A stretch of 64,000 nt of DNA, taken from assembly GCF_010586825.1 (NCBI RefSeq), contig NZ_JAAAGB010000005.1, forward strand, positions 372,001 to 436,000. Reading direction: 5' to 3'. The notes below the pieces were generated by a model, which made no database searches, was not told the origin of the DNA, and saw only the letters and a program-made list of their open reading frames with translations. Within the stretch, counting starts at the first letter, position 1. Every line of letters begins with the position of its first letter. Below, in pieces: positions 30,351 through 45,217 of this stretch. Origin of the DNA: Draconibacterium mangrovi. GTDB taxonomy: Bacteria > Bacteroidota > Bacteroidia > Bacteroidales > Prolixibacteraceae. The translations under genes and the position numbers were made by a program.

Positions 30351-30380
30351 GTAGGGTATTCCAAACCAAACCTGTATATA
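30351..30380 (+). promoter_or_regulatory. ECF-type promoter motif, site A
   Basis: GTAGGGTA (30351-30358), twelve bases, then CCTGTATATA (30371-30380). The same two blocks with the same 12-base spacing occur at four other intergenic places in this window. The expected start of transcription is near 30386. The FKBP lipoprotein gene follows at 30513, with a hairpin in between. Confidence 0.7.
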
Positions 30381-30449
30381 GAATGATTGCCACATAAAGT
30401 TGTAATCAATTTTGAGGTTTTAATGGTAAAAAACGGAAACAGTTAGTGG

Positions 30450-30478
30450 CAACCCGTCTGATGAGGCGGGTTGTTTTG
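30450..30478 (+). terminator. Hairpin/T-tract in the FKBP leader (attenuator or small-RNA 3' end)
   Basis: CAACCCGTCT and AGGCGGGTTG form a stem of about ten pairs (one G-T) with a GATG loop, followed by TTTTG. It lies 70-98 bases after promoter motif A and 35 bases before the FKBP start codon, so transcripts from A would meet it before the gene. The sequence GAAACAGTTAG comes just before the stem; a near copy precedes the equivalent hairpin at 35618. Confidence 0.6.
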
Positions 30479-30512
30479 TATCCGGGAATATGAATACTTA
30501 AAAAGGAAACTA

Positions 30513-31031
30513 ATGAGAAAATTTACTTTAGGATTGATGTTTAGCTTTGTTTTTGTTCTTGGCTTATTCACATCGTGTATCGACGTTGAAACGGAAGACA
30601 GAACTTATTCCGACGAAATGTTGGAGCTCGGTGAATTGTTGAGCAGCCTGGTTGCAGAAGGCTATGATATTGATACCACGGCGCTGGGAGTATACTATAT
30701 TGTTGTGGAAGAAGGAACAGGAGCCTGCCCGGTTGATGGAGATACCATTTCAATAAATTATAATGGCTATTTTGCTGATGGCACATTGTTCGACTCCTCA
30801 GATGATTGGGCAACCGACGGTATTTGGGAATTTGTTTATGGCGAACAATCGCTGATAACCGGATTTACAAATGCACTTTCGGTGATGAAAGCCGGAAGCC
30901 AGATGCAATTTATAATACCTTCCGATCTTGCTTACGGTTCATACGGTTATGGCAGTATTGGTGAATACCAGACACTTGTTTTTGCTATTGAAATGCACGA
31001 AATAAAATCAGTCTCCAACAGCTCCGAGTAG
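30513..31031 (+). CDS. FKBP-type peptidyl-prolyl isomerase lipoprotein
   Basis: ATG 30513 (after AAAAGGAAAC) is chosen over an upstream in-frame start because it gives a clean lipoprotein signal (LGLMFSFVFVLGLFTSC, Cys about residue 22). The 172-residue protein has an FKBP domain at about 65-165: YYIVVEEGTGACPVDGDTI, ISINYNGYFADGTLFDSS, LITGFTNALSVMKAGSQMQF and IPSDLAYGSYGYG, which are the Y-x-G-x-L-x-D-G-x-x-F-D-S and P-x-x-L-A-Y-G signatures. It should catalyse proline isomerisation of exported proteins at an outer membrane leaflet. It is preceded by motif A, and its stop codon overlaps motif B, which precedes the sigma factor gene. That arrangement suggests that it belongs to the same regulon, perhaps as a folding factor for the envelope proteins encoded nearby. 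Confidence 0.9.
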   Translation: MRKFTLGLMFSFVFVLGLFTSCIDVETEDRTYSDEMLELGELLSSLVAEGYDIDTTALGVYYIVVEEGTGACPVDGDTISINYNGYFADGTLFDSSDDWATDGIWEFVYGEQSLITGFTNALSVMKAGSQMQFIIPSDLAYGSYGYGSIGEYQTLVFAIEMHEIKSVSNSSE

Positions 31032-31059
31032 GGTAAAATTCTGCCTAGCTGTATAATAA
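31028..31059 (+). promoter_or_regulatory. ECF-type promoter motif, site B
   Basis: GTAGGGTA (31028-31035), twelve bases, then GCTGTATAATAA (31048-31059). It overlaps the TAG stop of the FKBP gene and lies about 110 bases before the ECF sigma gene, as expected for an autoregulated sigma factor. Confidence 0.7.
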
Positions 31060-31091
31060 ATGAAACGAGTCCCGGATTAACGGGATGAGTT

Positions 31092-31129
31092 CATCTGTTT
31101 CCGTAAAAATAAACAATTGCAAACAGATG
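31092..31129 (+). promoter_or_regulatory. Hairpin in the sigma-factor leader
   Basis: CATCTGTTT (31092-31100) pairs with AAACAGATG (31121-31129) around a 20-base loop in the leader downstream of motif B. There is no T-run. The strand CTGTTTCCGT (31095-31104) is also exactly complementary to ACGGAAACAG at 30433-30442 in the FKBP leader, so the two leaders could in principle pair. Confidence 0.4.
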
Positions 31130-31170
31130 AAAATTGATTAAATTAAGTTCGATTTACAGAAACTGTTTCT

Positions 31171-31671
31171 ATGCCGGGTATAGAGAAAAGAGAATTTATA
31201 GACTTGTTTAACGAAATGTTCCAGCCGATAAAGAACTACGTTTATTATAAGGTTGGAGATATTGAGGTGGCCGAAGATATTGCACAGGACACATTTGCGA
31301 AAGTGTGGGAAAAGCGCCGGGAGATCAGGCAAAGTACCATGAAGTCGTTGTTGTACACCATTGCCAATAATTTGTGCAAAAACAGGTTCGAGCATCAGCA
31401 GGTGGTTTACGAGTTTGCGAATAACTACGACCGTAACCAGTGGGATGTGTCGCCCGAATTTGAACTTGAACTAAAAGAATTTAATACAAAGCTACAGAAT
31501 GAAATTGCCCGGTTGACAGAAAAGAACAGGACTGTATTTTTAATGAACAGAATAGACGGATACACTTACAAAGAAATAGCAGACAACCTGGGAATAAGCG
31601 TAAAAGCTGTTGAGAAACGTATGAAAAATGCCTTAACTGAATTGAAAAAAACGATTGAACACAAATTCTAG
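31171..31671 (+). CDS. ECF sigma factor, FecI-like
   Basis: This 166-residue RNA polymerase sigma factor has region 2 at about 8-75 (FNEMFQPIKNYVYYKVGD, then DIAQDTFAKVWEKR, the core-binding and -10 recognition helices) and region 4 at about 105-160 (RTVFLMNRIDGYTYKEIAD, then NLGISVKAVEKRMKNALTELKK, the -35 recognition helix-turn-helix). It belongs to the Bacteroidota FecI-type group that works with FecR anti-sigma factors. The FecR gene follows after four bases and a TonB-dependent transducer after that, the classical cell-surface signalling triad. Motif B sits upstream, so I infer that it transcribes itself and the other genes that carry the GTAGGGTA-N12-CCTGTA motif. Confidence 0.95.
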   Translation: MPGIEKREFIDLFNEMFQPIKNYVYYKVGDIEVAEDIAQDTFAKVWEKRREIRQSTMKSLLYTIANNLCKNRFEHQQVVYEFANNYDRNQWDVSPEFELELKEFNTKLQNEIARLTEKNRTVFLMNRIDGYTYKEIADNLGISVKAVEKRMKNALTELKKTIEHKF

Positions 31672-31675
31672 AAAA

Positions 31676-32548
31676 ATGACTACCAACAACGGAAATAAAA
31701 TAACACAGGAAGAATTCGGAAAAATGAGTTCGGAGGATAAGATCCTGAATGTGGCCAGTGGTTTTGTTCCGCCCAAGGGTAGACCACAGGACGACATTTT
31801 AAACGAACTTCTTGATAAAATGGAGGAGGACTCGCCAACGCGCACGCTTCCGATTATACGTTACCTGCAAGTTGCGGCTGCTGTAGCCATAATATTGCTA
31901 ACCGTAAGAGTGGTTCCGGGGCTGTTGTTTGCCCAGCAAGTTAAAACTGCCAACGCCGAGCAGCAGGAAATTACCTTGCCCGACGGATCGGAGGTGATTC
32001 TGAATTCGGCATCGAAACTAAAATGGAACAAACGAAACTTTACTGATAAACGCTACCTTACACTCACAGGCGAGGCCTTTTTTGATGTTCAGAAAGGAAA
32101 TGAGTTTGTGATTGAAACAAAAAACGGCGAGGTTGAAATTTTGGGAACACAACTGAACGTATTTTCAAGGGGTAACGAATTTTGGGTGAGCTGTTTGAGA
32201 GGGAAAGTACGTGTTCGGCACCAGGATAGCGAACAGATAATTACTCCCGGAGAAATGGTTCGTTTGGATGACGAGGAGCTACAAAAAACAACTTCAGAGA
32301 CGATAGAAAACACTGCATCGTGGAAAGAGGGGATATTGCATTTTGAAGAAACAAAGCTTAGCACTATTTTTGCTGAGCTGGAAAGACAATTCGACGTTAC
32401 GATTTTCTTCGATGGAAACGAGGAACGTAAAGCAACGATTGACTTTTCCAACAAAGATCTTCAGGAAGCCTTAGATGTTGTGTGTATCCCGATGGAGCTA
32501 AAATATGAAGTTGACAACGACAAAATTACGATATCAGAAAAGAAATAG
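31676..32548 (+). CDS. FecR-family anti-sigma factor
   Basis: ATG 31676 lies four bases after the sigma stop; the frame could extend seven codons further upstream only through a non-ATG start inside the sigma gene. The 290-residue protein has a cytoplasmic N-terminus (1-58) that should hold the sigma factor, one membrane segment (about 59-82, LQVAAAVAIILLTVRVVPGLLF), a periplasmic FecR domain (about 95-190, EITLPDGSEVILNSASKLKW, LTGEAFFDVQKG, VEILGTQLNVFSRG) and the C-terminal DUF4974 domain (about 220-290, FEETKLSTIFAELERQFDV). It links the transducer in the outer membrane to the sigma factor. Its last 44 bases overlap the transducer gene, indicating coupled translation. Confidence 0.95.
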   Translation: MTTNNGNKITQEEFGKMSSEDKILNVASGFVPPKGRPQDDILNELLDKMEEDSPTRTLPIIRYLQVAAAVAIILLTVRVVPGLLFAQQVKTANAEQQEITLPDGSEVILNSASKLKWNKRNFTDKRYLTLTGEAFFDVQKGNEFVIETKNGEVEILGTQLNVFSRGNEFWVSCLRGKVRVRHQDSEQIITPGEMVRLDDEELQKTTSETIENTASWKEGILHFEETKLSTIFAELERQFDVTIFFDGNEERKATIDFSNKDLQEALDVVCIPMELKYEVDNDKITISEKK

Positions 32549-35156
32549 TTTACCTAATATTTTAGTCGTATTATTCTTGTTGCTGTTTCCTGTTCTTAGC
32601 TCTGCTCAGCAACTCAAATTTTCTTTCCATCAAACACCTGTCTCCTCTGCATTGCTTGAGGTGGCCAACAAAACCAACATTCGTATATCTTTTGATGTCG
32701 GAAATATGGAAAAGTTTTTAATCAATGATAGTTTGGAAACTGACAGTGTTTCTACTGTGCTGAACTGGATATTGGATGGAACCGGCTACCGTGCAGAATT
32801 CAAATACAATACCTGGCTGATTTATAAATCCGGCGAGGATGAGCAAAAGAAGGAACCTTCCGAAATTCATGTGTCGGGGTATATCTCTGATGGCGAATCG
32901 GGTGAGCGCTTGCCATATGCCACCGTATTTGTTGGACAGAAAAATGCAGTTATTCCATCAACGGTTGATGGTGTTTTCAGTGTGAAACTGAAAGAAAATG
33001 AAGAATGTCTTTTCCAGGTGCGCTACCTGGGGTATCAAACTTTGGATACCATAATTACAATAAACTCAGCGAATACTGCTTTAAACTTTGCATTGCAGCA
33101 AAAACTACAAAATATTGCCACAATTGATGTACCTGGGCATAAACTCGAAATGCTGGAAGTAAGTAACGATGCCGGTCATGTTACATTTAATCCGAGGCGT
33201 TTTACCGATTTACCCAATTTTGGAGAGCCTGATGTGTTTAAAACCCTGCAACTTTTGCCGGGAATTAGCACTCAGGAAAACTCATCGCAATTAAACATCA
33301 GGGGAAGTTCTGCCGACCAGAACCTGGTTACTTTTGATGGTTTTACGTTGTACAACCTAGATCATTTTTTTGGTGTTTTTTCCGCACTCAATCCTAATGT
33401 AATTAAAGATATTCAGGTTTACCGCGGAGGTTTTGATTCGCGCTATGGAGAACGTGTTTCTGGCATTGTAGAGATAACCGGGAAGAGTGGCGATAAAACA
33501 AAACCACGAATTTATGGTGGTATAAACATGATTAGTGGAAACCTGACTGCTGAGATCCCGATTTCTGAAAAACTATCGTTAGTAGCTGCCGGACGCCGGG
33601 CATATTCCGATGTATATTCCAGTTGGCTGGCCGACGCTATTTTGGCTAAACAAACAGGCCGGGGAAATCGTTTGCCAGATGCCGATAATACCATCGAACC
33701 TGAATTTTATTTCAGTGATTTTAATACCAAACTTACCTGGACGCCTAGCAAAAAAGATATTGTTTCCTTCAGTGTTTACGGTGCAAAAGATAATTTGAAC
33801 AGTTCCAACTTAATGGATCGCAATAATGTTGAGATTAATACGGAAGATGTAAATAAGTGGGGTAATTACGGATTTGGAATAACCTGGAAAACACAACACA
33901 AAGCCAATTATTTCAGCGAACTACAGTTGGGGCATTCAGGTTATTACAACGATTATTACAATAATACTACTTTTTCCGATTCGCTCGATCAGCAAATTCC
34001 TGTGCCTGACCAAAGGGAACATACTGCAACCAACGAGGAGAATAAGTTGCTCGACTATTTTCTGTCGTATAAAAATACTGTCTTTCTGAATACGGCTAAT
34101 CAACTGGAGTTTGGTTTAGCATCGCGTTACACGACCTTTAATTATTACAAAGATGCCGAGGAAGATGTGATTTACAGTAGGCTCGAGAAATCGGCTATGT
34201 TGTATACCGGCTTTGTACAGGATAAAATCTCATTAAGCACAAAATGGGCCGTAAAACCGGGCTTTCGTATAAATTTTTACGATGAAACCGATAAGTTTTA
34301 TTTCGAGCCCAGGCTGGCCGTTAACTACCAGGCAAATGAAAATATTCTGCTAAAAATGGCCACCGGCAAATATTACCAGTTTTTGAATAAATCGGAAACT
34401 GAACAAACCTATGGTTACAATCGCGATTTTTGGATTCTGGCTGATGGCGACCGCAACCCGGTAGTTTCGTCTAATCATTTTATTTTAGGTACCAGTATAA
34501 CTGCCGGGAAATTGTTTTTCGATGTTGAGGGGTATTATAAAAGTGTGAGCGGTCTCCAGGAATATTTATTCAAAGCGCCTGACAGAACTCCCGGAGAAAC
34601 GCCTTCAGTAGAACCCGGCGAGGAGCCTTTGAGTCTATTTATTGCCGGCGATGGAAAAGCTTATGGAATTGATTTTCTGGTAAAATACCAGGCGGCAAAC
34701 TTTAGTAGCTGGGTAGCTTATTCATTAAGTAAGTCGATACGTAATTTCGATAAGATAAATGATGGCGCAGACATTCCTGCTTCATTTGATCAAACGCACG
34801 AGCTAAAATGGACCAACATGTTGTCGTATAAGCGATGGAATTTTTCGGCCGTAATGCAATATACCACAGGACATCCGTACTATGAACCTACAGCGGAAGA
34901 CGATGATTTTAACGTAACACGTGATTACAAACGTTTGCCTGATTATTTTAGAGTCGATCTCTCGGCCAATTATAACTTCAACATAAAGAAGGTAAATATT
35001 AAACCGGGATTGTCGATCCTGAATGCCTTTAATACCGAGAATTACCTGGGAGTGTATGTTCGAGAATATAATTTTAATGGAGAAAACATTACCGATGTAG
35101 TCGGCATAAAAGCCCAGGATATTACACTTAACTTTTTTGTCAATTTCAGTTTCTAA
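32505..35156 (+). CDS. TonB-dependent transducer with STN domain
   Basis: This 883-residue outer-membrane protein starts with ATG 32505 inside the FecR gene and has a signal peptide (ILVVLFLLLFPVLSSA). The STN domain follows (about 38-108, LKFSFHQTPVSSALLEVA ... ILDGTGYRAEF), the part that contacts FecR-type anti-sigma factors. Then come a CarboxypepD_reg-like domain (about 120-205), the plug (about 225-330, LNIRGSSADQNLVTFDGF and VYRGGFDSRYGERVSGIVEI) and a beta-barrel ending in NFFVNFSF. There is no SusD partner gene, so it is probably a dedicated sensor or small-ligand importer rather than a glycan importer. With the FecR and sigma genes it forms the signalling path that I think controls the GTAGGGTA regulon. 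The ligand is unknown. Confidence 0.92.
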   Translation: MKLTTTKLRYQKRNSLPNILVVLFLLLFPVLSSAQQLKFSFHQTPVSSALLEVANKTNIRISFDVGNMEKFLINDSLETDSVSTVLNWILDGTGYRAEFKYNTWLIYKSGEDEQKKEPSEIHVSGYISDGESGERLPYATVFVGQKNAVIPSTVDGVFSVKLKENEECLFQVRYLGYQTLDTIITINSANTALNFALQQKLQNIATIDVPGHKLEMLEVSNDAGHVTFNPRRFTDLPNFGEPDVFKTLQLLPGISTQENSSQLNIRGSSADQNLVTFDGFTLYNLDHFFGVFSALNPNVIKDIQVYRGGFDSRYGERVSGIVEITGKSGDKTKPRIYGGINMISGNLTAEIPISEKLSLVAAGRRAYSDVYSSWLADAILAKQTGRGNRLPDADNTIEPEFYFSDFNTKLTWTPSKKDIVSFSVYGAKDNLNSSNLMDRNNVEINTEDVNKWGNYGFGITWKTQHKANYFSELQLGHSGYYNDYYNNTTFSDSLDQQIPVPDQREHTATNEENKLLDYFLSYKNTVFLNTANQLEFGLASRYTTFNYYKDAEEDVIYSRLEKSAMLYTGFVQDKISLSTKWAVKPGFRINFYDETDKFYFEPRLAVNYQANENILLKMATGKYYQFLNKSETEQTYGYNRDFWILADGDRNPVVSSNHFILGTSITAGKLFFDVEGYYKSVSGLQEYLFKAPDRTPGETPSVEPGEEPLSLFIAGDGKAYGIDFLVKYQAANFSSWVAYSLSKSIRNFDKINDGADIPASFDQTHELKWTNMLSYKRWNFSAVMQYTTGHPYYEPTAEDDDFNVTRDYKRLPDYFRVDLSANYNFNIKKVNIKPGLSILNAFNTENYLGVYVREYNFNGENITDVVGIKAQDITLNFFVNFSF

Positions 35157-35176
35157 AAAGAAATTTTGTATATACA

Positions 35177-35206
35177 GTAGGGTATTTCAGCGTAGGCCTG
35201 TAATAA
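35177..35206 (+). promoter_or_regulatory. ECF-type promoter motif, site C
   Basis: GTAGGGTA (35177-35184), twelve bases, then CCTGTAATAA (35197-35206), 20 bases after the transducer stop. It is the first of two tandem copies in the 660-base gap before the LytTR gene. No open frame with family features follows it within 500 bases, so it may make a non-coding RNA or a long leader. Confidence 0.65.
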
Positions 35207-35368
35207 AGGTATAAGCATTTAAAAACTTCATAGAAAGGTTTAGTTAAACAGAAAAGTAGAAACATAAGATCGAAAAGTACTCTACTTTGCAAAAGTACAT
35301 TTCTTCTTGTTGAAGAGGATTTGTGCTTTTGCTGTTTTAGGAATGTGTTGTTACTTCATGTATTTATA

Positions 35369-35411
35369 CCCATCCTCTTATCCTTCCCTGCAAGTAAGGA
35401 AGGACGATGGG
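35369..35411. repeat. Imperfect inverted repeat in the transducer-LytTR gap
   Basis: CCCATC and TCCTTCC at 35369-35387 pair with GGAAGGA and GATGGG at 35398-35411, giving a two-part stem. A second hairpin of similar composition, TCTTTCCCTT-CAAG-AAGGGAGAGA, lies at 35477-35500. Neither has a T-run. They look like small intergenic palindromes, possibly folded parts of an RNA started at site C. Confidence 0.5.
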
Positions 35412-35542
35412 TTGGTGGTTCAGCGAAGGTCTAAATCAATTAATTCATGTTCGTCGTTACTTGTGGAGGCCAATCGTCTTTCCCTTCAAGAAGGGAGAGA
35501 CAGGAGAGAGGGTAAAAAGGATCAAATAAATATTGTTTTTGG

Positions 35543-35572
35543 GTAGGGTAAAAAAATTCTTACCTGTATTAT
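35543..35572 (+). promoter_or_regulatory. ECF-type promoter motif, site D
   Basis: GTAGGGTA (35543-35550), twelve bases, then CCTGTATTAT (35563-35572). Transcription would start near 35578 and meet a strong hairpin/T-tract at 35618-35647 before reaching the LytTR gene. Confidence 0.7.
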
Positions 35573-35617
35573 AGATGTTTTCAGGCAGAGGCCGAAGACT
35601 AGAAACAGTTTGGTTCA

Positions 35618-35647
35618 CAATCCGCCTCACCCGGCGGATTGTTTTTT
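35618..35647 (+). terminator. Intrinsic terminator in the LytTR leader (attenuator or small-RNA 3' end)
   Basis: CAATCCGCC (35618-35626) pairs with GGCGGATTG (35633-35641) around TCACCC, followed by six T. A transcript from site D would be only about 70 nt if it stopped here. AGAAACAGTTTGG lies just before the stem, like the GGAAACAGTTAGTGG before the hairpin at 30450. It may gate LytTR expression or end a small RNA. Confidence 0.75.
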
Positions 35648-35818
35648 CCACTTGGGAAATGTTTTTGGCCTGAATAACATAACGATTAACACCTGTTAAA
35701 ACATCTTAAGGTTTTTTGGGGTGTGGTGTTTAGGAAAATGCCTGTATTAGTTCATAAATTGCGTTGCCAAACTTTCAATTTTGCAATGCCAAACAAAAAA
35801 CTGAAAACCACTGGAGAA

Positions 35819-36544
35819 ATGAATTGTATTATACTTGAAAAACCTCATACGCAAAGTTCGTTACGAGAAATGGTAAATATGGTGCCTTATTTTCACCTGA
35901 TGTCGTACTGCTCGTCGGTTTTTGATGCTTACGAAATTTTGCGAAGAGAAAAAATTGATATCGTATTTGTAGATACCGTATTGTCAAAAATTTCAGGTAT
36001 TGATTTTATTAAAAGCCTCGATCAAAAGCCGCTTTTTGTGTTTGTGTCCGACAAGCCGGAGTTGGCTGTTGAAGGCTATAATCTAAATGCACTTGATTTT
36101 CTTTTAAAACCTTTGAGCTTCGATCGTTTTCTGAAAACGGCAAATAAAGCTTACGAGTGTTGTGCCACAGAAACAAAACGTTCGGAGTTTGTTTCGGAGC
36201 CTGAACATCAGGAGGCAGGCCATAAAACGATCCTGGTTAAAACTGATTACAAAACCATTCTGATTAAGTTGAACAATATTTTGTACATCGAAGGATTAAA
36301 AGACTATATAAAAATTTATACGTCAGGAAATAACAAGCCTGTTATTACGCTTAATTCATTAAAAAGGCTGCAGCAAAACCTACCTGCCGATCGATTTTCG
36401 AGAGTACATAAATCTTACATTGTTGGCCTCGATCATATTAACGCTATCAACAAAACCCAGGTAATGATAAAAGACAAATTTATTCCGATTGGGGAAAGTT
36501 ATCGTTCGGTATTTAGTCAGCGGATGGAAGAATTGCGTATCTAA
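35819..36544 (+). CDS. LytTR-type response regulator with degenerate receiver
   Basis: I prefer ATG 35819 because the receiver domain starts directly there (MNCIILEKPH); in-frame ATG 35786 would add eleven residues. The 241-residue protein has a receiver (about 1-115) and a LytTR DNA-binding domain (about 135-235, ILVKTDYKTILIKLNNILYIEGLKDYIKIYT ... FSRVHKSYIVGL). The phospho-acceptor Asp (IVFVDTVLSKISGIDF) and the Lys of LNALDFLLKPL are kept. The acidic pair that holds Mg2+ (normally DDE in CIIVDDEP) reads LEKP, so phosphorylation may be weak or absent. No histidine kinase gene is next to it. It follows two ECF-type motifs (C and D) and converges with the outer-membrane gene at 36666-37928, so its level may be set by the ECF system rather than by a kinase. 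Confidence 0.88.
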   Translation: MNCIILEKPHTQSSLREMVNMVPYFHLMSYCSSVFDAYEILRREKIDIVFVDTVLSKISGIDFIKSLDQKPLFVFVSDKPELAVEGYNLNALDFLLKPLSFDRFLKTANKAYECCATETKRSEFVSEPEHQEAGHKTILVKTDYKTILIKLNNILYIEGLKDYIKIYTSGNNKPVITLNSLKRLQQNLPADRFSRVHKSYIVGLDHINAINKTQVMIKDKFIPIGESYRSVFSQRMEELRI

Positions 36545-36665
36545 AAAAATTTGCATATTCTTTACTACCCCCAAAAATCTACTTCATGTATTAACCGTTG
36601 CAGCATATTTTGCTGTGCTTTTACAATCCTAAATGTGCAATCGTTAATCAATATTCATCGTTCGA

Positions 36666-37942: not shown

Positions 37943-39268
37943 CTATTCGTAAAAAACGTAGTACAGGTTTAAGGTAGGACGGTAATTGGAAAGTGAGCGG
38001 GCATCAAACACAATGTTGTCGAGCGTGCCGCCATATTCGGTTTCGGGCAACATTACCAGTAATCCGTCTTCCGGATCAACGTAACCATCGCTCAACTCGG
38101 TGTAAATAAAATCGGTAATATCGAAGATGTACTGTGTATATTCGTCGTAAAATTCATCGTAATAAAAGGTGGCCGGAATTGAATAGTCATCTTGGTCTGT
38201 CAGCTCCTCAACAACATTATTTTTTTTGTCGGAAGTATACAGAATGAGATTTTCAGGCAATTCTCCTTTATTTTTGTAAGTTCCCGATAGTGGTTTAAGT
38301 ACCAATTCTGCTTTATACAATATGTTTTTATATTGTACCTCCAGAATTTTACTGATACCCGGAAAATCAATCCGCGTGGTATAACCCAAGCTTGCCAGCA
38401 GGTAAGAGCGTTTGTTTAACAGGCCTGAAGAAACTTCCCCGGTTTGAGTTATGGCTTGCTCCAGAGCCATGCCGCTAACATCGTTGCTAACATTGTTGAA
38501 ATGATTGTGCGATGTGCTTTGATGTACAAATGTGTACGACTTATTTACTTTGGTTTCTTTGATAATGTGAGTGTAAATCCTTATTTGAAAAGATGTATCG
38601 ACATCAAAACTTAATATCGAGTTATTCTCATCTCCCGGAACCAGTGCTACTCCTTGGAAATAATCAAGGAATTCGCTTGTCGATTGCAGTTCATCATCAT
38701 CGTCGCGAAGGTAGGACAGGAATTCCAGTCCCAGTGCATCATTCAACCGAATGGCAAGTGTATCGTGGAAGTTGGGTTTCGGAACTATTGTTTGCGAGCC
38801 TAAAGGATTTTCGTCGTAGTTAAAGGTGGTGGTATTATAAAGGTAAGGTTCGGCATCGTAATCGTCGTTTGGTTCAATGTCTTCTCGTACACGATGAACT
38901 CTGAAAGTTTGTGGTAAAAGCGTGTCGCCATAAGCCATTCCGCTGTAGTTCATACAAATTACTATCGAGTCAAAAATTTCATCGTCGTCGATATCGGCCG
39001 ATGGCATACCAATTTGAGCATAGGCAGTGGCGCTTATTTTTCCTAAATCGGCATCGGTGTAACTTCCACACAATAAATAGCTGCTCTCGGAAGTGGGGAT
39101 TGAATCCATTTTTACGGTTGATAAAAGGATTTGTATCGTATCAATAAGTGCAACATTTGTTTGGTTATTAATGTAGTTGTCGCCAAGTGAGACCATTAGT
39201 GATTCATCATCGTGGCACGACAATAAAAATAACCAGCCAACCAGGACAATAATTGCTTTTTTCTTCAT
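37943..39268 (-). CDS. DUF4270 family lipoprotein
   Basis: This 441-residue protein has a lipoprotein signal (IIVLVGWLFLLSC, Cys about residue 18, followed by HDDESL). The N-terminal part with SLGDNYINNQTNVALIDTIQILLSTVKMDSI and LLCGSYTDADLGKISATAYAQ matches DUF4270, a Bacteroidota family of surface lipoproteins of unknown role. The second half consists of beta-strands (LEVQYKNILYKAELVLKPL, IFDITDFIYTELSDG) in a jelly-roll-like pattern. It precedes the outer-membrane barrel gene in a two-gene unit and is divergent from the Kelch lipoprotein at 39550. The shared upstream region holds a TTAACGATAAAA direct repeat. The function cannot be assigned. Confidence 0.82.
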   Translation of the reverse strand: MKKKAIIVLVGWLFLLSCHDDESLMVSLGDNYINNQTNVALIDTIQILLSTVKMDSIPTSESSYLLCGSYTDADLGKISATAYAQIGMPSADIDDDEIFDSIVICMNYSGMAYGDTLLPQTFRVHRVREDIEPNDDYDAEPYLYNTTTFNYDENPLGSQTIVPKPNFHDTLAIRLNDALGLEFLSYLRDDDDELQSTSEFLDYFQGVALVPGDENNSILSFDVDTSFQIRIYTHIIKETKVNKSYTFVHQSTSHNHFNNVSNDVSGMALEQAITQTGEVSSGLLNKRSYLLASLGYTTRIDFPGISKILEVQYKNILYKAELVLKPLSGTYKNKGELPENLILYTSDKKNNVVEELTDQDDYSIPATFYYDEFYDEYTQYIFDITDFIYTELSDGYVDPEDGLLVMLPETEYGGTLDNIVFDARSLSNYRPTLNLYYVFYE

Positions 39269-39386
39269 TGTATATTTTCTGTTTTCGGTTTCAAATGAAG
39301 AAAAGAAATGCCGTACGGGAAAAGAATATATACCAAACGGACATTGTTACAGACCATTCGGTGGAATCTATTTCTTTTAGAACTTT

Positions 39387-39438
39387 TTAACGATAAAATA
39401 TGGGTGAATCATCAATTATTCGGCGATTAACGATAAAA
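39387..39438. promoter_or_regulatory. Direct repeat TTAACGATAAAA, candidate operator between divergent genes
   Basis: TTAACGATAAAA occurs at 39387-39398 and, exactly 40 bases on, at 39427-39438, between the divergent DUF4270 and Kelch lipoprotein genes. Its complement reads TTTTATCGTTAA, and TCCGTTCAT follows at 39443-39451; both resemble the GTT-centred half-sites that LytTR regulators bind. ATAACGATTAACA occurs once at 35680 before the LytTR gene itself. Binding by that regulator is inference. Confidence 0.4.
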
Positions 39439-39549
39439 ACCATCCGTTCATCTATACTTATTCCGCCATAGTCCAAATTCCTTTTTTATCAATGCAAACA
39501 GACTTAGGTTTGCCTAACAGAATTGAACAATTAAAATAATTTTTTAGTC

Positions 39550-40566
39550 ATGATGAAGACAGGAAAAAACATTCTTTTATATGCATTATTTATAGTACTG
39601 GCAACGCTGGTTTCGTGCACCGACGACGATGATGATGAAATTACCGACGGCGACTGGTGGGAAATGTCGGATTTTGATGGTGTGCCCCGTAGCGATGCCG
39701 TTTGTTTCGAAATAAATGATAATGCCTACATTGGTTTGGGATACGATGGCGATGATCGCCTGAATGATTTTTGGAAGTACGATCCGGATAATAATTTCTG
39801 GACAAAGATTGCTTCATTTCCCGGAGCCGCCAGGAACGGAGCTGTTGCTTTTAGTATCGACGGAAAAGGATATGTTGGCACCGGATATAGTGGAGAAGAT
39901 GAATTAAACGATTTTTGGGAATACAACCCATCGACTGATACCTGGACGCAGAAAGCAGATTTTATGGGAAGCGCACGTTATGGTGCTGTTGGTTTTGCGG
40001 TTAGCGGCAAAGGGTATATCGGCAGTGGTTACGACGGAAATTACCTGAAAGATTTTTATGCCTATTCTCCTGAAAGTGACAGCTGGGAGCAGATTATAAG
40101 TATTGGCGGATCGAAAAGACGCGATGCCTCGTGTTTTGTAATTGGCAGCAAAGCTTATGTATTGTCGGGTTTGGATAACGGCGTTTATGAAAACGATCTT
40201 TGGGAGTACGATCCGTCAACCGGATACTGGACCGAAAAACGAGCTATATCAGACGATGACGACGATTTGAGCTATGACGATGAATATTTATCGATTGCAC
40301 GTATTAATGGTGTTGGATTTTCGCTTAACGGATTAGGATACCTTGCAACCGGTAGTACCGGATCGATGATAAGTAACATTTGGGAGTACGATCCGCAGCA
40401 GGATTTGTGGTCTGAAAAAACATCGTTTGAAGGTACATCAAGAACAGAAGCTGTAGGATTTGCAATTGGTTCGAGAGGTTACATTACCACCGGCAGAAGT
40501 TCAACCTACTACTTCGATGATATCTGGACTTTTGATCCGGGAAAAGAGTATGATGAGGATAATTAA
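39550..40566 (+). CDS. Kelch-repeat surface lipoprotein
   Basis: This 338-residue lipoprotein (signal ALFIVLATLVSC, Cys about residue 23) continues with a run of Asp (TDDDDDE), a common export tag for surface lipoproteins in Bacteroidota. The body is a Kelch beta-propeller of about five or six blades, each with the pattern R-x-G-A-V-x-F ... K-G-Y-V-G-T-G-Y ... L-N-D-F-W-E-Y-x-P-x-x-x-x-W-x-x-K (for example ARNGAVAFSIDGKGYVGTGY and LNDFWEYNPSTDTWTQKADF). An acidic insertion (ISDDDDDLSYDDE) breaks the pattern near residue 240. Kelch propellers bind proteins or glycans. It is divergent from the DUF4270-barrel pair, probably shares their control region, and may assemble with them on the surface. 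It ends with a strong terminator. Confidence 0.88.
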   Translation: MMKTGKNILLYALFIVLATLVSCTDDDDDEITDGDWWEMSDFDGVPRSDAVCFEINDNAYIGLGYDGDDRLNDFWKYDPDNNFWTKIASFPGAARNGAVAFSIDGKGYVGTGYSGEDELNDFWEYNPSTDTWTQKADFMGSARYGAVGFAVSGKGYIGSGYDGNYLKDFYAYSPESDSWEQIISIGGSKRRDASCFVIGSKAYVLSGLDNGVYENDLWEYDPSTGYWTEKRAISDDDDDLSYDDEYLSIARINGVGFSLNGLGYLATGSTGSMISNIWEYDPQQDLWSEKTSFEGTSRTEAVGFAIGSRGYITTGRSSTYYFDDIWTFDPGKEYDEDN

Positions 40567-40610
40567 TAATGTCTGAACAGGACAGTTAGTTATATATTTC
40601 TTGTGAATAA

Positions 40611-40639
40611 AAAGCGCTTAGCAATAAGCGCTTTTTTTA
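40611..40639 (+). terminator. Intrinsic terminator of the Kelch gene
   Basis: AAAGCGCTTA (40611-40620), loop GCAA, then TAAGCGCTTT (40625-40634) and further T residues. It is a ten-pair perfect stem. Confidence 0.9.
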
Positions 40640-40736
40640 TGCTTCCCTCAGGGGAAAGTTGCGGATATAAACAGCTTCTGGTTTCATATTGAATGAAATA
40701 ATATTGTTTTACTTTAAGAGTAGAAAAAACTGTTTG

Positions 40737-40960
40737 GTGGCTTAAACTAAAGTTTAAAGCAGAATACATTTTTTTTGATTAAACTTTAGTTTAAACGCTG
40801 GCGGAGCTCCGGCGAGCGTTTAAAGGTTTGTTTATTTGCTTCCGGCGTTCCTTTTGACGCTTAAACATAAGTTTTAAACGCTCTCCGGCGTTCCTTTCAG
40901 GGCTTAAAGGTTTGTTTAAGTCTTGTCGGGTGTTCCTTTTGGGCTTTAAACTAATGTTTA
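40737..40960. repeat. Cluster of degenerate intergenic repeats and palindromes
   Basis: The 670-base gap between the Kelch gene and the DUF2490 gene contains a repeated block of the form CCGGCGTTCCTTT...GCTTAAA, seen at about 40842-40864, 40885-40907 and (as GTCGGGTGTTCC) 40925-40950, each followed by an AA-N(4-6)-GTTT segment. Before it, AAACTAAAGTTT (40744) and its reverse complement AAACTTTAGTTT (40780) form an inverted pair, and AAACGCT-GGC-GGAGCTCC-GGCG-AGCGTTT (40793-40821) is a palindrome. No ORF is supported here. Bases 40961-41185 show nothing recognisable. Confidence 0.6.
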
Positions 40961-41185
40961 TGGGCAGAAAGTAAATTCCGGGGGCTTAAAACTTACCGGC
41001 TATCCCCGTGAAAGCTGAGCTGATCCATCTTAAACCTGCATAAGGGTGGAGGAGAATAAGATCTTTGGTATCAAATATCGTCCGAAACTATTCTATGTGC
41101 ACTGCAAAAGTTCCTTTTGTGGATTTAGGGTTAATTATAAGCGTGGAAAATGGAAATGAACCTGGACAATATGCCTTGCTTCTGC

Positions 41186-41212
41186 AAAAAAAAGGAGGCG
41201 CATTGGCCTCCT
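41186..41212 (-). terminator. Intrinsic terminator of the VTC operon
   Basis: On the minus strand AGGAGGC and GCCTCCT (41193-41199 and 41206-41212) form a seven-pair GC-rich stem followed by eight T. It lies 29 bases after the DUF2490 stop. Confidence 0.85.
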
Positions 41213-41240
41213 CAAACTAACTTATGATAATAACTCTAAT

Positions 41241-41870
41241 TTACAGGCTAAACCTGTATGATAGTCCAAGAATATTTTTGTTGTCCTTTGTGCTATTTAG
41301 GTAATTGTTTATGCGGTAATAAGCACCTATTTTGTTGTGTTTGTTGATCTTGTACATCAAACCTCCTTCAAAACGTGATTTGCTGAATTCTTTGGCGTCC
41401 AGATCGTGATACCATTCATTTAGAATGTAAGGTTCCAGGTTCAGCTTTTTAATTTTATACTCCAGCCCGATTTTGTAACGCAGGTAATTTGTTGCTTCAT
41501 TGTTGTCGGCAAAATCATCGTCGTTGGTAAAACGCAGTCTGAACTTTGGACTAAAATTCTTCCATTTAAATCCGGTTTTTACGTCGATATTGAACCGCCC
41601 GAAGGATTCGTGTTCATCGTCGCCGTTTATGTTGTAACCAAAGCGGTAACCGGCTCCCAGCTTAAAATATTTGCTGAATTTATATTCCAGTCCTGTTTGC
41701 AGAAAATACTCGTTCAGCTCAAAATTATCTTTAAAACGTATTTCGGGCGAAACCGAGAATTCAAGGTCTTTCACAATTTCTGTTGAAAATTCGGTCTCGA
41801 ACCAGGTATCCTGCGAAAAGGCCTGGAAAAAGGCGAGTGTAACACTCAGCACTAAAATTATCTTCTTCAT
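41241..41870 (-). CDS. DUF2490-like outer-membrane beta-barrel protein
   Basis: This 209-residue protein has a signal peptide (MKKIILVLSVTLAFFQAFS) and a body made of about ten amphipathic strands (WFETEFSTEIVKDLEFSVSPEIRF, EYFLQTGLEYKFSKYFKLGAGYRF, KIGAYYRINNYLNST) ending in LGLSYRFSL with the C-terminal aromatic typical of outer-membrane barrels. The layout matches the DUF2490 family. It is the last gene of the minus-strand operon, three bases after the DUF4956 gene. A small barrel in an operon with a polymerase suggests an export or anchoring role for the product, but no function is established. Confidence 0.78.
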   Translation of the reverse strand: MKKIILVLSVTLAFFQAFSQDTWFETEFSTEIVKDLEFSVSPEIRFKDNFELNEYFLQTGLEYKFSKYFKLGAGYRFGYNINGDDEHESFGRFNIDVKTGFKWKNFSPKFRLRFTNDDDFADNNEATNYLRYKIGLEYKIKKLNLEPYILNEWYHDLDAKEFSKSRFEGGLMYKINKHNKIGAYYRINNYLNSTKDNKNILGLSYRFSL

Positions 41871-41873
41871 GTA

Positions 41874-42539
41874 CTAAAAAGTATTTGATTCGCCGTTGGC
41901 ACCATTAATATCGTGATAGACCTTTATTTTGGCCACATCGCGCAGGTAGTTTACCTCTTCAATTTCAATTCGTTTTACTTTAATCCCGGTGCGCTCCTGA
42001 ATGTCGGCGTATAATTCTGCTTTCTTTTTAATATTGATGTTCTCAATGTTTTCGTAATTAATTACCAGGCAGATTTCCTGTTTTAAAATCAGTATCTTCT
42101 CCAGAATCCACAGGGTGAGCATAATAACCACATTGGTGAAAATTAATTCAGCATGGCTTACTTTTTTGTTGGATAAGGCATTGATTACCGAGATGCCGAT
42201 AATTACAAAAAGGTAGGTCATTTCTTTAATGGGAATGGGGTCGGTACGGTAACGGATAATACCGAATATGGCAAATAAACCGAATGCAAATCCCAGCTCG
42301 AGTTTTACGCTCTCCAGTAAAAAGCAAAGCACAAATATGGTGATGCTAATGGAAATGTAGCTGAAATAAAAATCTTTACGGTTGCTGTTTTTTGAGTAGA
42401 TATAATTAACTACTACAAATATAACCAGCAGATTTAATCCAAAACGTACCAATAATTGTGTAAAATCTTCGGGATTAATAACCTTAATGCCCAGCCACCT
42501 GAGCGGCTCGCTGATAATCGTATCCTGTATCTGATCCAT
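41874..42539 (-). CDS. DUF4956 membrane protein
   Basis: This 221-residue inner-membrane protein has four hydrophobic segments in the first 135 residues (LLVRFGLNLLVIFVVVNYIY, ISISITIFVLCFLLESV, FAFGLFAIFGIIRYR, VIMLTLWILEKILI) with the conserved cytoplasmic loop IIRYRTDPIPIKEMTYLF, the DUF4956 signature. The C-terminal 80 residues are a soluble alpha/beta domain (LVINYENIENINIKKKAELYADI, VNYLRDVAKIKVYHD). It overlaps the VTC gene by 56 bases, so translation is coupled. DUF4956 proteins are regular partners of bacterial VTC-domain proteins. They are thought to form the membrane part of the system, analogous to the membrane segments of yeast VTC subunits. Confidence 0.88.
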   Translation of the reverse strand: MDQIQDTIISEPLRWLGIKVINPEDFTQLLVRFGLNLLVIFVVVNYIYSKNSNRKDFYFSYISISITIFVLCFLLESVKLELGFAFGLFAIFGIIRYRTDPIPIKEMTYLFVIIGISVINALSNKKVSHAELIFTNVVIMLTLWILEKILILKQEICLVINYENIENINIKKKAELYADIQERTGIKVKRIEIEEVNYLRDVAKIKVYHDINGANGESNTF

Positions 42540-43362
42540 AATTTTTGTTTTCGATGAAAGTTAATGTTGACTTTTTGTGCAGGGCTGTTAACGCGATTTC
42601 GTTTTTAAATTGTTTTCTAAGCTGAATCAATCGTTCTTTAAATAAGTTTCTTTTTAAACCGGGTTCCAGAAAAGCCCGGCCAATACAATATTTACTAAAT
42701 CCACCGGGTTTAATTCTGAAGTAATTCAGTGCTAAACAAAGTGGTGTTTTTTCGTTTATACTTCCTTGTTTTAGTTCCACCACGACTATATCTCCCAATT
42801 CCAGTTTCTTTGAACTGGAATACGAAACCAGGTGAATATCGATCGTGCAACGCTCCGAAAAATCTTTATTAACCAGTGTAATGCGCTCGAATGAGTTGGT
42901 ATTTTTAACCGGCAACGTAAAGTTCGACAGGTGAAAATCGAAGTCGGTATTTTCGCTTAAAAAATGCAGTTCTTTTGCCGAGAACGAAGCATTTTTGTTT
43001 TCTGCTATCATTCGCAGCTTTCTCGTTTTACCCTTGTTATTTTTTTTCTTTATCTCCAGAAAAACAAGGCCCGAATCCATATAGGCCCGCTTCCTGATCT
43101 TCATACGGTTTAATTTCCCGTTATGATGATTGATGTATAAATTATCTGCACTCGAATCGTAGTACAAAGTTTGGTAACTGTGTTTTCGTTTTCCGTCTAT
43201 TTCTAAAATGTAGTAATCGTCTTTTATAGCTTCGAGGACTTCGTATAATTTGCCAGCCGACAGCTGATATTTTGAATCAAAACGGTTGAGTAAGGCTACC
43301 TCGTTCATCTCATTAAGCGAAATAGCATCAAACTGTTGTGTAAGTGCAATTATTGATATCAT
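42484..43362 (-). CDS. VTC-domain polyphosphate-polymerase-like protein
   Basis: This 292-residue soluble protein carries a VTC domain, a tunnel enzyme fold that in yeast Vtc4 makes polyphosphate from ATP. Visible conserved parts are NRFDSKYQLSAGKLYEVL (start, with basic tunnel Lys), YQTLYYDSSADNLYINHHNG, RMKIRKRAYMDSGLVFLEIKKK (the R-x-R-x-Y and E-x-K motifs), KTRKLRM, DIVVVELKQG (the acidic residue for metal) and PGGFSKYCIGRAFL (the late K-Y-x-x-G motif). The full set looks intact. It lies three bases after the beta-helix lipoprotein gene and overlaps the DUF4956 gene. The product is probably polyphosphate, or a related phosphoryl polymer or modification; a CotH kinase, a frequent partner of such genes, is not present here. 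Confidence 0.88.
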   Translation of the reverse strand: MISIIALTQQFDAISLNEMNEVALLNRFDSKYQLSAGKLYEVLEAIKDDYYILEIDGKRKHSYQTLYYDSSADNLYINHHNGKLNRMKIRKRAYMDSGLVFLEIKKKNNKGKTRKLRMIAENKNASFSAKELHFLSENTDFDFHLSNFTLPVKNTNSFERITLVNKDFSERCTIDIHLVSYSSSKKLELGDIVVVELKQGSINEKTPLCLALNYFRIKPGGFSKYCIGRAFLEPGLKRNLFKERLIQLRKQFKNEIALTALHKKSTLTFIENKNYGSDTGYDYQRAAQVAGH

Positions 43363-43365
43363 GCT

Positions 43366-45159
43366 TTAATTGCTTAATTGATATCCTGTAATCCGTTGCG
43401 ATAGCGTAAAGGTCTTTTGCAATGTTCCTGCCGTATAAGTTGCATTGGTGTAATAACCGTTTTGAGCGGTTCCGGTTACCTTGCCACCGCTGTAGAAATT
43501 GTAACTTACGCCTTGTTTCAGTTCCGGCGAACTGTAAATAAACGCCTGAATGTCTTTTGCCGGTTCAAATGTCACTACTTCATCACCATTACTGGTTTCG
43601 ATGTGGCACAACGTGCCCGCCTGTTGGGTGCTTCGGAAAACTAAAGCAACGCAGTTTACACTCGATGAAGACCCTGGAGCCTGCAACATTCCTGAACTAC
43701 CTGCACCTATTAATGTTCCGCCTGTTTGTACAAAAGAGTCATCGTAATCGAGAATTCCGTTGCCACTTCCTGTTGGTCCGTTAACGATCACCAAACCATC
43801 GCTCATCTCAACCGATCCGTTGGAATCGAGGCCATCTCCCTGTGCATTTACGACCAAACGTTCGGGTGCCAGGTATAAGGTATAACTTGCAGTGGCTGAT
43901 TTACCCCATCCTCCGGGGCCACCTGCCATGCTGTCGCCACCGGCTGCAACATTCAGCCCGTCGTCGCTCGAAACAATATCAAACGTACCGCCATTGATAG
44001 CCAAATCTCCAGACGTACTTTCTATTCCTTCGTACGACTTTGTAATTGTGTAATCTCCCGAGTTTATTGTAAGGTCGTAGTCTGCATGAATCCCGTCGTC
44101 GCTGGCCGAAATGGTATACGTTCCGCCATTTAGCGTAATGGTTTGATCAGAATGAATCGCATCTTCCGCTGAATTAATCAAAAACGTTCCTGCATTTACG
44201 ATCATATTTACTCCCGATTTCAGCCCTTTTAATGACGTGTCGGAGTATGAACCGGAACCGTTGGTAGTAAGATCGAAGGTTCCATTTTCAATCAGAATAT
44301 CGGTTTCCGCAGAGATGGCGTCGCCACCAGCAGTAATATCGATATCGACGGTTAGTATTTCTATGTAACCTCGTGTTTCGTCGGTGTCATTATCCGACTT
44401 TAATCCGTCTCCACCGGAATTAATGTTGATGGTTCCATCTTTTATAATCAGGTAATCTTTTCCCCTGATTCCGTCATCAACGGCATTAATCTCCAATTGG
44501 TTTACATCTACTATCAAACCATCTTTCGTGTTAACTGCGTCGTTAAAGTTCCCGTTCAGCACCAGCTTGCCTTCGCCGTAAAGCGTAAGGTCGGTTTTGC
44601 TGAAAATAGTGGCATTCGGTTCTTCGTCTTCAACATCGTCGTAGTCGTACGAGCTTCCATCGGTAAGTGTGTTTTCGGTATTTGCGTTAGCTACTACAAT
44701 TACTTTCTCCGCACTCTTTATATAAATGGGAGCGCTGTTTGAACAACTAATATCCACGCCATCGAGTAGCAAGCGAACTAGGTCGGTTTCCGCTGCATTA
44801 ACAATAATTTGCCCGTTACTCAGACTGCCGTTAAAACTATAAGTGCCTGCTGCTGTTATGGATACTGTGCTGCCACTCACTTCAACATCATCTAGACTCT
44901 CGCTAACCGAACTTCCATTTAAAGTAATCGATTTAACATCCGAGCTGCTCCATGTATAATCTGAAGTCTCTTCATGGTCTCCATCGTTGTTGGCTTCTGC
45001 ATCTGTTATTTCATCTTCATTGTCAGCGGCAGCTGCGGCTTCTTCTGTATCATCAGTTTCGTCATCAACTATTGGAGATGTAAGATCGCACGCCCAGAAT
45101 GAGAATGAGAATAGGAGGGTTCCCAGTAAGATCAAAATTGTTTTTTGCTTCATTTTCAT
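43366..45159 (-). CDS. Cthe_2159-like beta-helix carbohydrate-binding lipoprotein
   Basis: This 597-residue protein has a signal with a possible lipobox (LLFSFSFWAC, Cys about residue 24) and then an acidic, low-complexity linker of about 45 residues rich in D, E and A. The rest resembles the Cthe_2159 carbohydrate-binding family: SDVKSITLNGSSVSESLDDVEVSGSTVSITAAGTYSF-type start, then short repeats such as LIIKDGTININSGGDGLKSDN, DILIENGTFDLTTNGSG, TITLNGGTYTISASDDGIHAD and LAINGGTFDIVSSDDGLN, which form a right-handed beta-helix with Ca-binding-like S-D-D-G-I/L turns. It is the first gene of the VTC operon, and motif E lies only about 30 bases before it. It may bind acidic polysaccharide at the surface. 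Similar beta-helix/VTC/DUF4956 groupings exist in Firmicutes and Bacteroidota, but their function is open. Confidence 0.82.
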   Translation of the reverse strand: MKMKQKTILILLGTLLFSFSFWACDLTSPIVDDETDDTEEAAAAADNEDEITDAEANNDGDHEETSDYTWSSSDVKSITLNGSSVSESLDDVEVSGSTVSITAAGTYSFNGSLSNGQIIVNAAETDLVRLLLDGVDISCSNSAPIYIKSAEKVIVVANANTENTLTDGSSYDYDDVEDEEPNATIFSKTDLTLYGEGKLVLNGNFNDAVNTKDGLIVDVNQLEINAVDDGIRGKDYLIIKDGTININSGGDGLKSDNDTDETRGYIEILTVDIDITAGGDAISAETDILIENGTFDLTTNGSGSYSDTSLKGLKSGVNMIVNAGTFLINSAEDAIHSDQTITLNGGTYTISASDDGIHADYDLTINSGDYTITKSYEGIESTSGDLAINGGTFDIVSSDDGLNVAAGGDSMAGGPGGWGKSATASYTLYLAPERLVVNAQGDGLDSNGSVEMSDGLVIVNGPTGSGNGILDYDDSFVQTGGTLIGAGSSGMLQAPGSSSSVNCVALVFRSTQQAGTLCHIETSNGDEVVTFEPAKDIQAFIYSSPELKQGVSYNFYSGGKVTGTAQNGYYTNATYTAGTLQKTFTLSQRITGYQLSN

Positions 45160-45190
45160 ACGTTGTGAATAAAATTTATTGTTGTGTTTT

Positions 45191-45217
45191 ATACAGGAGA
45201 GGGAAGGATTACCCTAC
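45191..45217 (-). promoter_or_regulatory. ECF-type promoter motif, site E
   Basis: On the minus strand GTAGGGTA (45217-45210), twelve bases, then CCTGTATAAAA (from 45197 downward). The 12-base spacing equals that of sites A-D. The start codon of the beta-helix/VTC operon is about 33 bases after the second block, giving a short leader without a hairpin. The rest of the gap to 45323 shows nothing. Confidence 0.7.

Follow-up and report, generated by a model that had tools for sequence, protein, structure and literature searches.

A candidate self-limiting circuit in Draconibacterium mangrovi: an ECF sigma factor and two short RNAs with complementarity to its start region

We describe a stretch of 64,000 nucleotides from Draconibacterium mangrovi (contig NZ_JAAAGB010000005.1, positions 372,001 to 436,000; called the window below, and numbered from its first letter), in which a two-block motif, GTAGGGTA-N12-SCTGTA, is associated with the gene of an extracytoplasmic function (ECF) sigma factor. 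We propose that the sigma factor recognizes this motif and transcribes its own operon, a small regulon and two short RNAs, termed RNA A and RNA B, which carry a common seed complementary to the start region of the sigma gene. The parts of this picture that come from genome comparison are the promoter family, the regulon, the RNA units conserved together with their terminators, and the conserved complementarity. Taken as a whole, the circuit, consisting of an autoregulated sigma factor, its regulon and two self-limiting small RNAs, seems to us reasonably likely.

The promoter motif and its sigma factor

The motif very probably is the promoter, with -35 and -10 blocks, that the FecI-type ECF sigma factor encoded at 31171 recognizes. 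The motif sites and the genes of the sigma operon are as follows.

31028..31053, + strand: motif site, predicted promoter of the sigma operon, GTAGGGTA-N12-GCTGTA(TAA), overlapping the stop codon of the FKBP gene (pattern search)
30351..30376, + strand: motif site, predicted promoter of RNA A (pattern search, comparison of relatives)
35177..35202, + strand: motif site, predicted promoter of candidate RNA C (pattern search, comparison of relatives)
35543..35568, + strand: motif site, predicted promoter of RNA B (pattern search, comparison of relatives)
45192..45217, - strand: motif site, predicted promoter of the beta-helix/VTC operon (pattern search, comparison of relatives)
31171..31671, + strand: ECF sigma factor, TIGR02985 (NCBIfam 130.1 bits, cut-off 126.4; Pfam regions 2 and 4)
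31676..32548, + strand: FecR-type anti-sigma factor (PF04773, PF16344; open reading frame from 31655)
32505..35156, + strand: TonB-dependent receptor with N-terminal extension (Pfam Plug, CarbopepD_reg_2)

All five sites lie where the original prediction, made from the letters of the sequence, had placed them; each has no mismatch and a spacer of exactly 12 bases, and the overlap of site 31028 with a stop codon was confirmed. The genome-wide search that this prediction had called for was done on the assembly of 5,903,439 bases in 27 contigs, with the reversed pattern as control. The exact pattern gave five matches, namely the same five sites, all in one 15 kb, versus one match of the control, and by our arithmetic about 0.09 would be expected by chance per assembly. 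When up to two mismatches were allowed, the motif matched 33 times and the control 54 times, thus the exact sites alone rise above background. Two sites with one mismatch occur elsewhere in the genome, both overlapping open reading frames, and a relaxed pattern with extended -10 and one mismatch returned the five known sites and 11 more (16 versus 28 in the control). A genome-wide distribution of the element can be ruled out, since there are five exact sites only and near-matches are no more numerous than in the control.

A weighted logo of 59 sites gave the consensus KTAKGGTA-N12-nCTGTATTA, in which the -10 block is longer than first described and reaches CTGTATTA. These sites had been collected with the motif itself, thus what the logo newly contributes is the added TTA and the absence of flanking blocks: between -39 and +86 no second strongly conserved promoter block was found around the sites. 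The motif had been said to differ from the Bacteroidota housekeeping promoter (TTTG / TAnnTTTG), and indeed no TAnnTTTG block is conserved in the 59 sites.

The claim that the motif is an ECF-type promoter and the target of an autoregulated sigma factor at 31171 gains support from comparison with 140 genomes of the family (this genome is G000). A match to the sigma factor at E<=1e-40 was present in 40 of the 140; identity was at least 62% in 16 of these, followed by a gap to 54%. All 16 orthologues with at least 62% identity have the motif immediately before the sigma gene, with a spacer of 12 and 0-2 mismatches, i.e. two blocks at fixed spacing precede the sigma factor's own operon, as in ECF-type promoters. 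The absence of a second conserved block and the behaviour of the two blocks among more distant relatives agree with the same reading: the -10 shifts with the sigma clade, the -35 stays constant. Upstream DNA could be read for 79 sigma relatives (one of 80 was dropped), and in 26 of them a GTAGGG-type -35 was found within 200 nucleotides of the sigma gene, compared with about 1.4 expected from the background rate. It is present in all 17 top-ranked relatives (L019-L035) and missing in the next six (L036-L041, 45-49% identity), so the -35 follows subclades and not identity alone.

The -10 reads nCTGTATTA in L019-L026 (62-85% identity; one has TTT), rTTGTA followed mostly by TCA in L027-L035 (47-53% identity), and nnCGG in nine loci of 40-45% identity, including Sunxiuqinia. 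The variants of all three subclades sit at the same 12-base offset from the -35; it must be noted that the position weight matrix used for the relatives was trained on sites including L019-L026 and is independent only from L027 onward. In four of the nine nnCGG loci a second site of that type stands before a gene further downstream. These alignments suggest a readable promoter code, in which the sigma clade keeps a constant -35 (GTAGGGTA) and the -10 varies by subclade. Region 4 of the sigma factor is better conserved than region 2 (0.66 versus 0.45 in the second subclade, 0.58 versus 0.38 in the third), which is compatible with a fixed -35 but is not proof of it, because the 29 relatives without the motif likewise show 0.58 versus 0.41. 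The GTAGGG -35 was also sought before the receptor genes of sigma homologues that do not have it at the sigma gene; among 51 such loci, in 50 of which both genes were found, it was convincing in L043 only and partial in L090 and L097.

Short RNAs and the sigma start region

The elements discussed in this section are listed here.

30385..30480, + strand: RNA A, about 95 nucleotides, ends approximate; 5' hairpin, conserved middle, GAAACAGTT at 30436-30444, terminator stem 30448-30475
35575..35649, + strand: RNA B, about 75 nucleotides, ends approximate; 5' hairpin, AGAAACAGTTT at 35601-35611, terminator 35617-35642 and T run
35211..35340, + strand: candidate RNA C, about 130 nucleotides; long 3' hairpin 35289-35332, then TGTTTT
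31160..31170, + strand: sigma start element AAACTGTTTCT, abutting the sigma ATG; complements AGAAACAGTTT of RNA B and, via AACTGTTTC, GAAACAGTT of RNA A

Each of the five sites had originally been assigned to a downstream protein gene. This assignment stands for the sigma and the beta-helix/VTC sites, but not for the site thought to point at FKBP and the two thought to point at LytTR. Intrinsic terminators follow sites 30351 and 35543 at a distance of about 70-100 nucleotides, ahead of FKBP and LytTR, respectively. Site 30351 appears to head a short RNA with a terminator, and FKBP could be reached by read-through only; sites 35177 and 35543 appear to head short RNAs that end at hairpins (35177 probably), and the LytTR promoter at 35721 had been missed.

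The terminator hairpin has 12 pairs and a T-rich tail in RNA A, and 10 pairs and a T run in RNA B. Both RNAs fold more stably than shuffled sequences, with z values of -3.2 (RNA A) and -4.6 (RNA B). In alignments of RNA A (seven genomes) and RNA B (six of seven copies; that of G061, identical to G062, was omitted) conservation spans the -35, the -10, the body and the terminator, and is at background level on either side; site G066:20742, which precedes an FKBP gene, was excluded from the RNA A set. For candidate RNA C (four genomes) conservation declines after the hairpin, and the receptor gene lies on its upstream side. Covariation was seen in RNA A, where five pairs are changed on both sides, four of them in the terminator; RNA B is too uniform for such an analysis, with one pair broken in one copy and another in two. 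A small peptide is not favoured in either RNA: in RNA A the frame is broken by indels and the start codon is lost in relatives, and in RNA B the evidence is slight, namely one insertion that shifts one copy and one copy without ATG. An Rfam search of 30100-36000 gave five matches, all below the gathering score.

Models of the two RNAs (R1, R2) were searched over the 140 genomes with strict filters, which may miss weak relatives. Strong RNA A matches (at least 91 bits) were found in exactly seven genomes, all carrying the sigma gene, and strong RNA B matches in G000, G061, G062, G067 (two copies), G069 and G070. Model R2 also detects the RNA A genes, with 35-46 bits, because the two RNAs have a common seed and terminator layout, and they may be paralogues. 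Nine weaker matches were inspected and set aside: four fall at the 3' end of an OsmC-family gene, one is a damaged RNA A of G070 (L190), and four look unrelated. The OsmC-family gene ends (L191, L194, L195, L209; Pfam assignment for L194 only) carry GAGATTTTAATGGTA before a terminator, which resembles the middle block of RNA A (GAGGTTTTAATGGTA); perhaps the two share a protein-binding site or an origin.

Both RNAs have their own promoter motif and an intrinsic terminator, and are conserved as RNA rather than as a reading frame, as is characteristic of trans-acting small RNAs. RNA B is very probably a stand-alone RNA. The same is likely for RNA A, with somewhat less confidence than we first had, because an FKBP gene follows it on the same strand in five of the seven genomes (G000, G067, G069, G035 and G066; 44-100% identity). 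In G061 and G062 no FKBP gene follows, and RNA A stands directly ahead of the sigma promoter.

The two RNAs have GAAACAGTT in common, just before the terminator, and this is a perfect complement of the sigma start region (AACTGTTTCT-ATG). With the sigma start reading ACAGAAACTGTTTCT-ATG, RNA B can pair over 12 nucleotides, reaching the first base of the ATG, and RNA A over nine pairs and one G-U. The sequence AACTGTTTC precedes the sigma start in all seven genomes with an intact RNA A and in none of the nine other orthologues. Just upstream of the start element one base is inserted in G035 and four in G066; AACTGTTTCTATG is intact in both. Prediction of full-length duplexes opened the terminators and was uninformative, and the linkers alone were then used, a choice made afterwards. 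By this measure the sigma start was among the best 0.6-3.4% of 4,870 ATG windows for RNA A and about 1% of 3,665 for RNA B, in a comparison where the start positions of four of the nine control orthologues were off by a few bases. When the window's 31 gene starts were ranked, the sigma start came first for RNA A (-14.7 versus -9.4 for the next).

The bare pattern AACTGTTTC-N0-12-ATG is common, with 30 matches in this genome and 25 in G062. Apart from the sigma gene, the inspection covered the 29 remaining matches of this genome, a further 24 of G062 and four of other genomes; matches of G067 and G069, and the majority of those of G035, G061 and G066, fell outside it. By a mechanical test nearly all of the inspected matches lie inside frames of at least 100 codons or before no 50-codon frame, and no convincing intergenic gene start was found among the other matches of the two genomes. 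The exceptions are L261, at the coding start of a CarbopepD_reg_2 protein, L243, before a 51-codon frame, and L283, close to where a FUSC-like gene of G062 begins. In G035 and G066 a common AACTGTTTCTATGAAGGGGGATG precedes short doubtful frames (L267, L268), which is possibly a second target of RNA A. The sigma leader of this genome, G067 and G069 contains an extra hairpin, CATCTGTT...AACAGATG (31090-31145), missing from four shorter leaders; here and in G069, not in G067, it holds CTGTTTCCGT, the complement of ACGGAAACAG in RNA A. On the whole, we regard an action of RNAs A and B on the sigma mRNA as fairly probable.

Regulon and neighbouring genes

The remaining features of the locus are the following.

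35721..35746, + strand: variant LytTR promoter, GTGTGGTG-N12-CCTGTA-TTA, three mismatches; conserved before LytTR in eight genomes
35819..36544, + strand: LytTR response regulator, receiver and LytTR domain (Pfam; open reading frame from 35723)
30513..31031, + strand: FKBP-type isomerase (PF00254; open reading frame from 30471), between RNA A and the sigma promoter
43366..45159, - strand: Cthe_2159-type beta-helix gene (PF14262)
42484..43362, - strand: VTC-domain protein (PF09359)
41874..42539, - strand: DUF4956 protein (PF16316)
41241..41870, - strand: DUF2490 protein (PF10677)

In all six genomes with an available upstream end (G000, G067, G069, G036, G053 and G107) the sigma-linked beta-helix/VTC genes have the motif ahead of them, the copies of G036 and G053 carrying two mismatches; the G098 contig stops short of the start of the VTC operon. 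The arrangement is split in G107, where one site precedes FKBP and the beta-helix gene and another DUF4956 and DUF2490. In G137 a site stands before a weakly similar beta-helix gene (28%). Outside the sigma loci 25 DUF4956 matches were listed, and the surroundings of 17 were inspected: 16 of these unlinked VTC operons had no site scoring at least 16, and one (G137) had a weak site. G067 and G069 possess a second operon, with a DUF4956 protein 89-90% identical and without the motif, which serves as a within-genome control. VTC-DUF4956-DUF2490 operons thus recur at other loci (L329-L345), and a LytTR gene (29-37% identity) is close to nine of the 17 inspected, which suggests that LytTR regulators and this module are connected. 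In G050, G058 and G054 (L149, L143, L140) the sigma operon is followed by a second TonB receptor gene (32-34% identity to the first), which has a site of its own, and the available locus contains no VTC operon.

The LytTR gene lies downstream of the receptor gene. Its variant site, mostly GTATGGTA or GTGTGGTA, occurs in G000, G067, G069, G070, G062, G061, G035 and G066, and a ninth genome, G107, has an exact motif site in this position. In most genomes the degenerate promoter is accompanied by TTAGTTCATAAA downstream. FKBP genes (40-46%) were seen beside the sigma gene also in loci without RNA A (L145/L146 of G107, L143 of G058, L140 of G054, L149 of G050), and G066 has a second FKBP gene with a motif site of its own. 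FKBP is probably part of the sigma system, because it is present without RNA A and lies, in G107, between a site and the beta-helix gene.

The genes for the FecR-type anti-sigma factor and the TonB receptor adjoin the sigma gene, which is the FecIRA adjacency. In the receptor about 120 residues precede the first domain, and no Pfam STN match was found at a maximal E of 10, a setting at which most weak matches are removed by the HMMER filters. Among named relatives, those nearest to the sigma factor come from Draconibacterium, with 85% identity (an uncultured one) and 77% (D. aestuarii).

One genome, G070 (a single contig, 100% complete), offers a natural loss of the sigma factor. It has no sigma match at E<=1e-40, FecR is also gone, and the locus passes straight from within RNA A into the final quarter of the receptor gene. 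The truncated RNA A (around C1:77284) has lost seed and terminator, and a second RNA A copy (C1:866509) is altered in the promoter, in one seed base and in the terminator. The close VTC operon is missing as well; just a 34% match remains, which is present in this genome, too. These losses fit a dependence of RNA A and the VTC operon on the sigma factor.

The proposed circuit, its alternatives and known systems

We suggest that a signal received by the TonB receptor and passed on by FecR, as the gene set implies, would release the sigma factor. Free sigma factor would transcribe its own operon, the beta-helix/VTC/DUF4956/DUF2490 operon, the LytTR gene and at least RNAs A and B. On accumulation the RNAs would cover the sigma start, GAAACAGTT pairing with AACTGTTTC, and hinder translation, so that positive transcriptional autoregulation would be checked by an RNA-mediated negative loop. 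Sigma dependence, the existence of the transcripts, pairing in the cell and repression are the steps that we infer. The fact that FKBP follows RNA A in five of seven genomes made us slightly less confident of the circuit than at first, and slightly more inclined to consider a leader function. The more specific proposal of a closed RNA loop, in which one ECF sigma factor and two small RNAs with a common seed on its own start codon form a self-limiting pulse switch, taken together with the -35/-10 code, appears to us evenly balanced.

Several observations weigh against the circuit. The strength of pairing alone is not extreme: composition-shuffled linkers paired equally well in 62 of 5000 cases for RNA A and 128 of 5000 for RNA B, and among the 31 gene starts the sigma start is only second for RNA B (-14.9), after that of DUF2490 (-16.6). 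The sigma start region is conserved past the seed match; since this wider conservation exists and the seven genomes with RNA A are closely related, they are not seven independent cases of the complement, and no compensatory change was seen inside the pairing among them. RNA A may also be a leader of FKBP. The housekeeping -7 element TATATTTG overlaps the -10 in three of 16 sigma leaders (G050, G107, G137). The lack of RNAs A and B in G098, G137 and G058 refers to genomes that are 80-89% complete. Finally, G070 retains RNA B (C1:78456) and the sites of candidate RNA C and LytTR without the sigma factor; the loss of the sigma gene may be recent, or the two RNAs may have another use.

It is very improbable that the motif is an operator of a DNA-binding regulator such as the LytTR protein instead of a sigma promoter. 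A LytTR gene does lie in the neighbourhood, as it does near nine of the 17 other VTC operons inspected, and LytTR-domain regulators often bind paired sites. However, the two halves of the motif do not repeat each other, and the sites have no further conserved promoter block near them. The motif also stands before the sigma gene in genomes whose available locus has no LytTR orthologue, and other VTC operons near LytTR genes do not have it. Attenuation is a further possibility: RNAs A and B, standing here just ahead of FKBP and ahead of LytTR, respectively, on the same strand, would be leaders with conditional read-through and not free RNAs, and FKBP does come after RNA A in five of the seven genomes. 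We think this improbable, given the RNA A genes of G061 and G062 that lead directly to the sigma promoter, the separate site of the second FKBP gene of G066, the promoter of LytTR downstream of RNA B, the two RNA B copies of G067, and the strong terminators at which conservation stops. A leader role would, moreover, be compatible with a small-RNA role.

Less easily dismissed, though still rather unlikely in our opinion, is that RNAs A and B are sigma-dependent small RNAs acting mainly on other mRNAs, those of outer-membrane proteins for instance, and that the match to the sigma gene is secondary or accidental. The classical sigma-E-dependent small RNAs act on envelope mRNAs, according to the available part of the Fusobacterium report (PMC11005410). 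Conservation of the RNA A middle block (GAGGTTTTAATGG) roughly equals that of the seed, the seed matches the N-terminal coding region of the CarbopepD_reg_2 protein L261 (a SusC-type receptor by eye), the start of DUF2490 is the best of the 31 for RNA B, and G035 and G066 share a second AACTGTTTCTATG site. On the other hand, the seed offers 9-12 perfect pairs abutting the sigma ATG, solely in genomes that have RNA A, and the other AACTGTTTC-N0-12-ATG matches of two genomes included no convincing intergenic gene start (L283 of G062 being uncertain).

The locus is of interest in several respects. The motif can be tied by sequence to one sigma clade, a small regulon becomes readable, and the -35/-10 code can be traced across three subclades, in a phylum with few known ECF promoters. 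The RNA loop, if true, would permit a direct test of ECF sigma self-limitation through RNA, and would connect such control to the VTC/DUF4956 module; no paper was found that contains both 'VTC domain' and 'DUF4956'.

It is instructive to compare the locus with known systems. The adjacency of ECF sigma factor, FecR protein and TonB receptor is the same as in FecI-FecR-FecA signalling; here the receptor has no Pfam STN match, and the regulon includes the VTC operon and the RNAs. Unlike E. coli fecIR, the sigma operon is headed here by its own promoter type. Bacteroidota can have dozens of ECF sigma factors, 50 in Bacteroides thetaiotaomicron by the portion of a 2025 study available (PMC12596196). 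For none of these was a recognition motif known in 2020, as stated in the accessible text of a study of that year (PMC7366714); the 2025 study, in the same portion, mapped ECF regulons in B. thetaiotaomicron and gave evidence for SigW-1 and SigH-1 at non-canonical promoters (PMC12596196).

Small RNAs transcribed by an ECF sigma factor are represented by MicA and RybB of sigma-E and by FoxI and FoxJ of Fusobacterium sigma-E; when FoxI or FoxJ is overexpressed, rpoE and further members of the regulon decrease (PMC11005410, available part). In those loops, as far as that part goes, dampening proceeds via repression of outer-membrane proteins, whereas here the predicted target is the start codon of the sigma factor itself, and two RNAs carry one common seed. 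StsR of Rhodobacter sphaeroides, a sigma-dependent RNA of 72 nucleotides, pairs with a sigma mRNA near its start, and without it the half-life of the target about doubles (PMC8307010, in the sections available). StsR is, by the same sections, made by RpoHI/RpoHII and targets rpoE in an indirect two-sigma loop, in contrast to our proposal, where one sigma factor would be both maker and target. GibS and FopS of B. thetaiotaomicron have a seed and a terminator and bind mRNA start regions (PMC11697453, PMC7366714); in the accessible text of these reports FopS uses a housekeeping promoter and GibS the motif PM2, and the targets named are glycan-use and other genes, with no sigma factor among them, whereas the RNAs described here are headed by the sigma-type motif. 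The open-licence literature searched held no report of an ECF sigma factor that has two RNAs directed against its own start codon. Sigma-dependent RNAs, feedback through them and start-region-binding Bacteroides RNAs are thus already known, and the new part would be the arrangement in which two RNAs are directed at the sigma factor that makes them.

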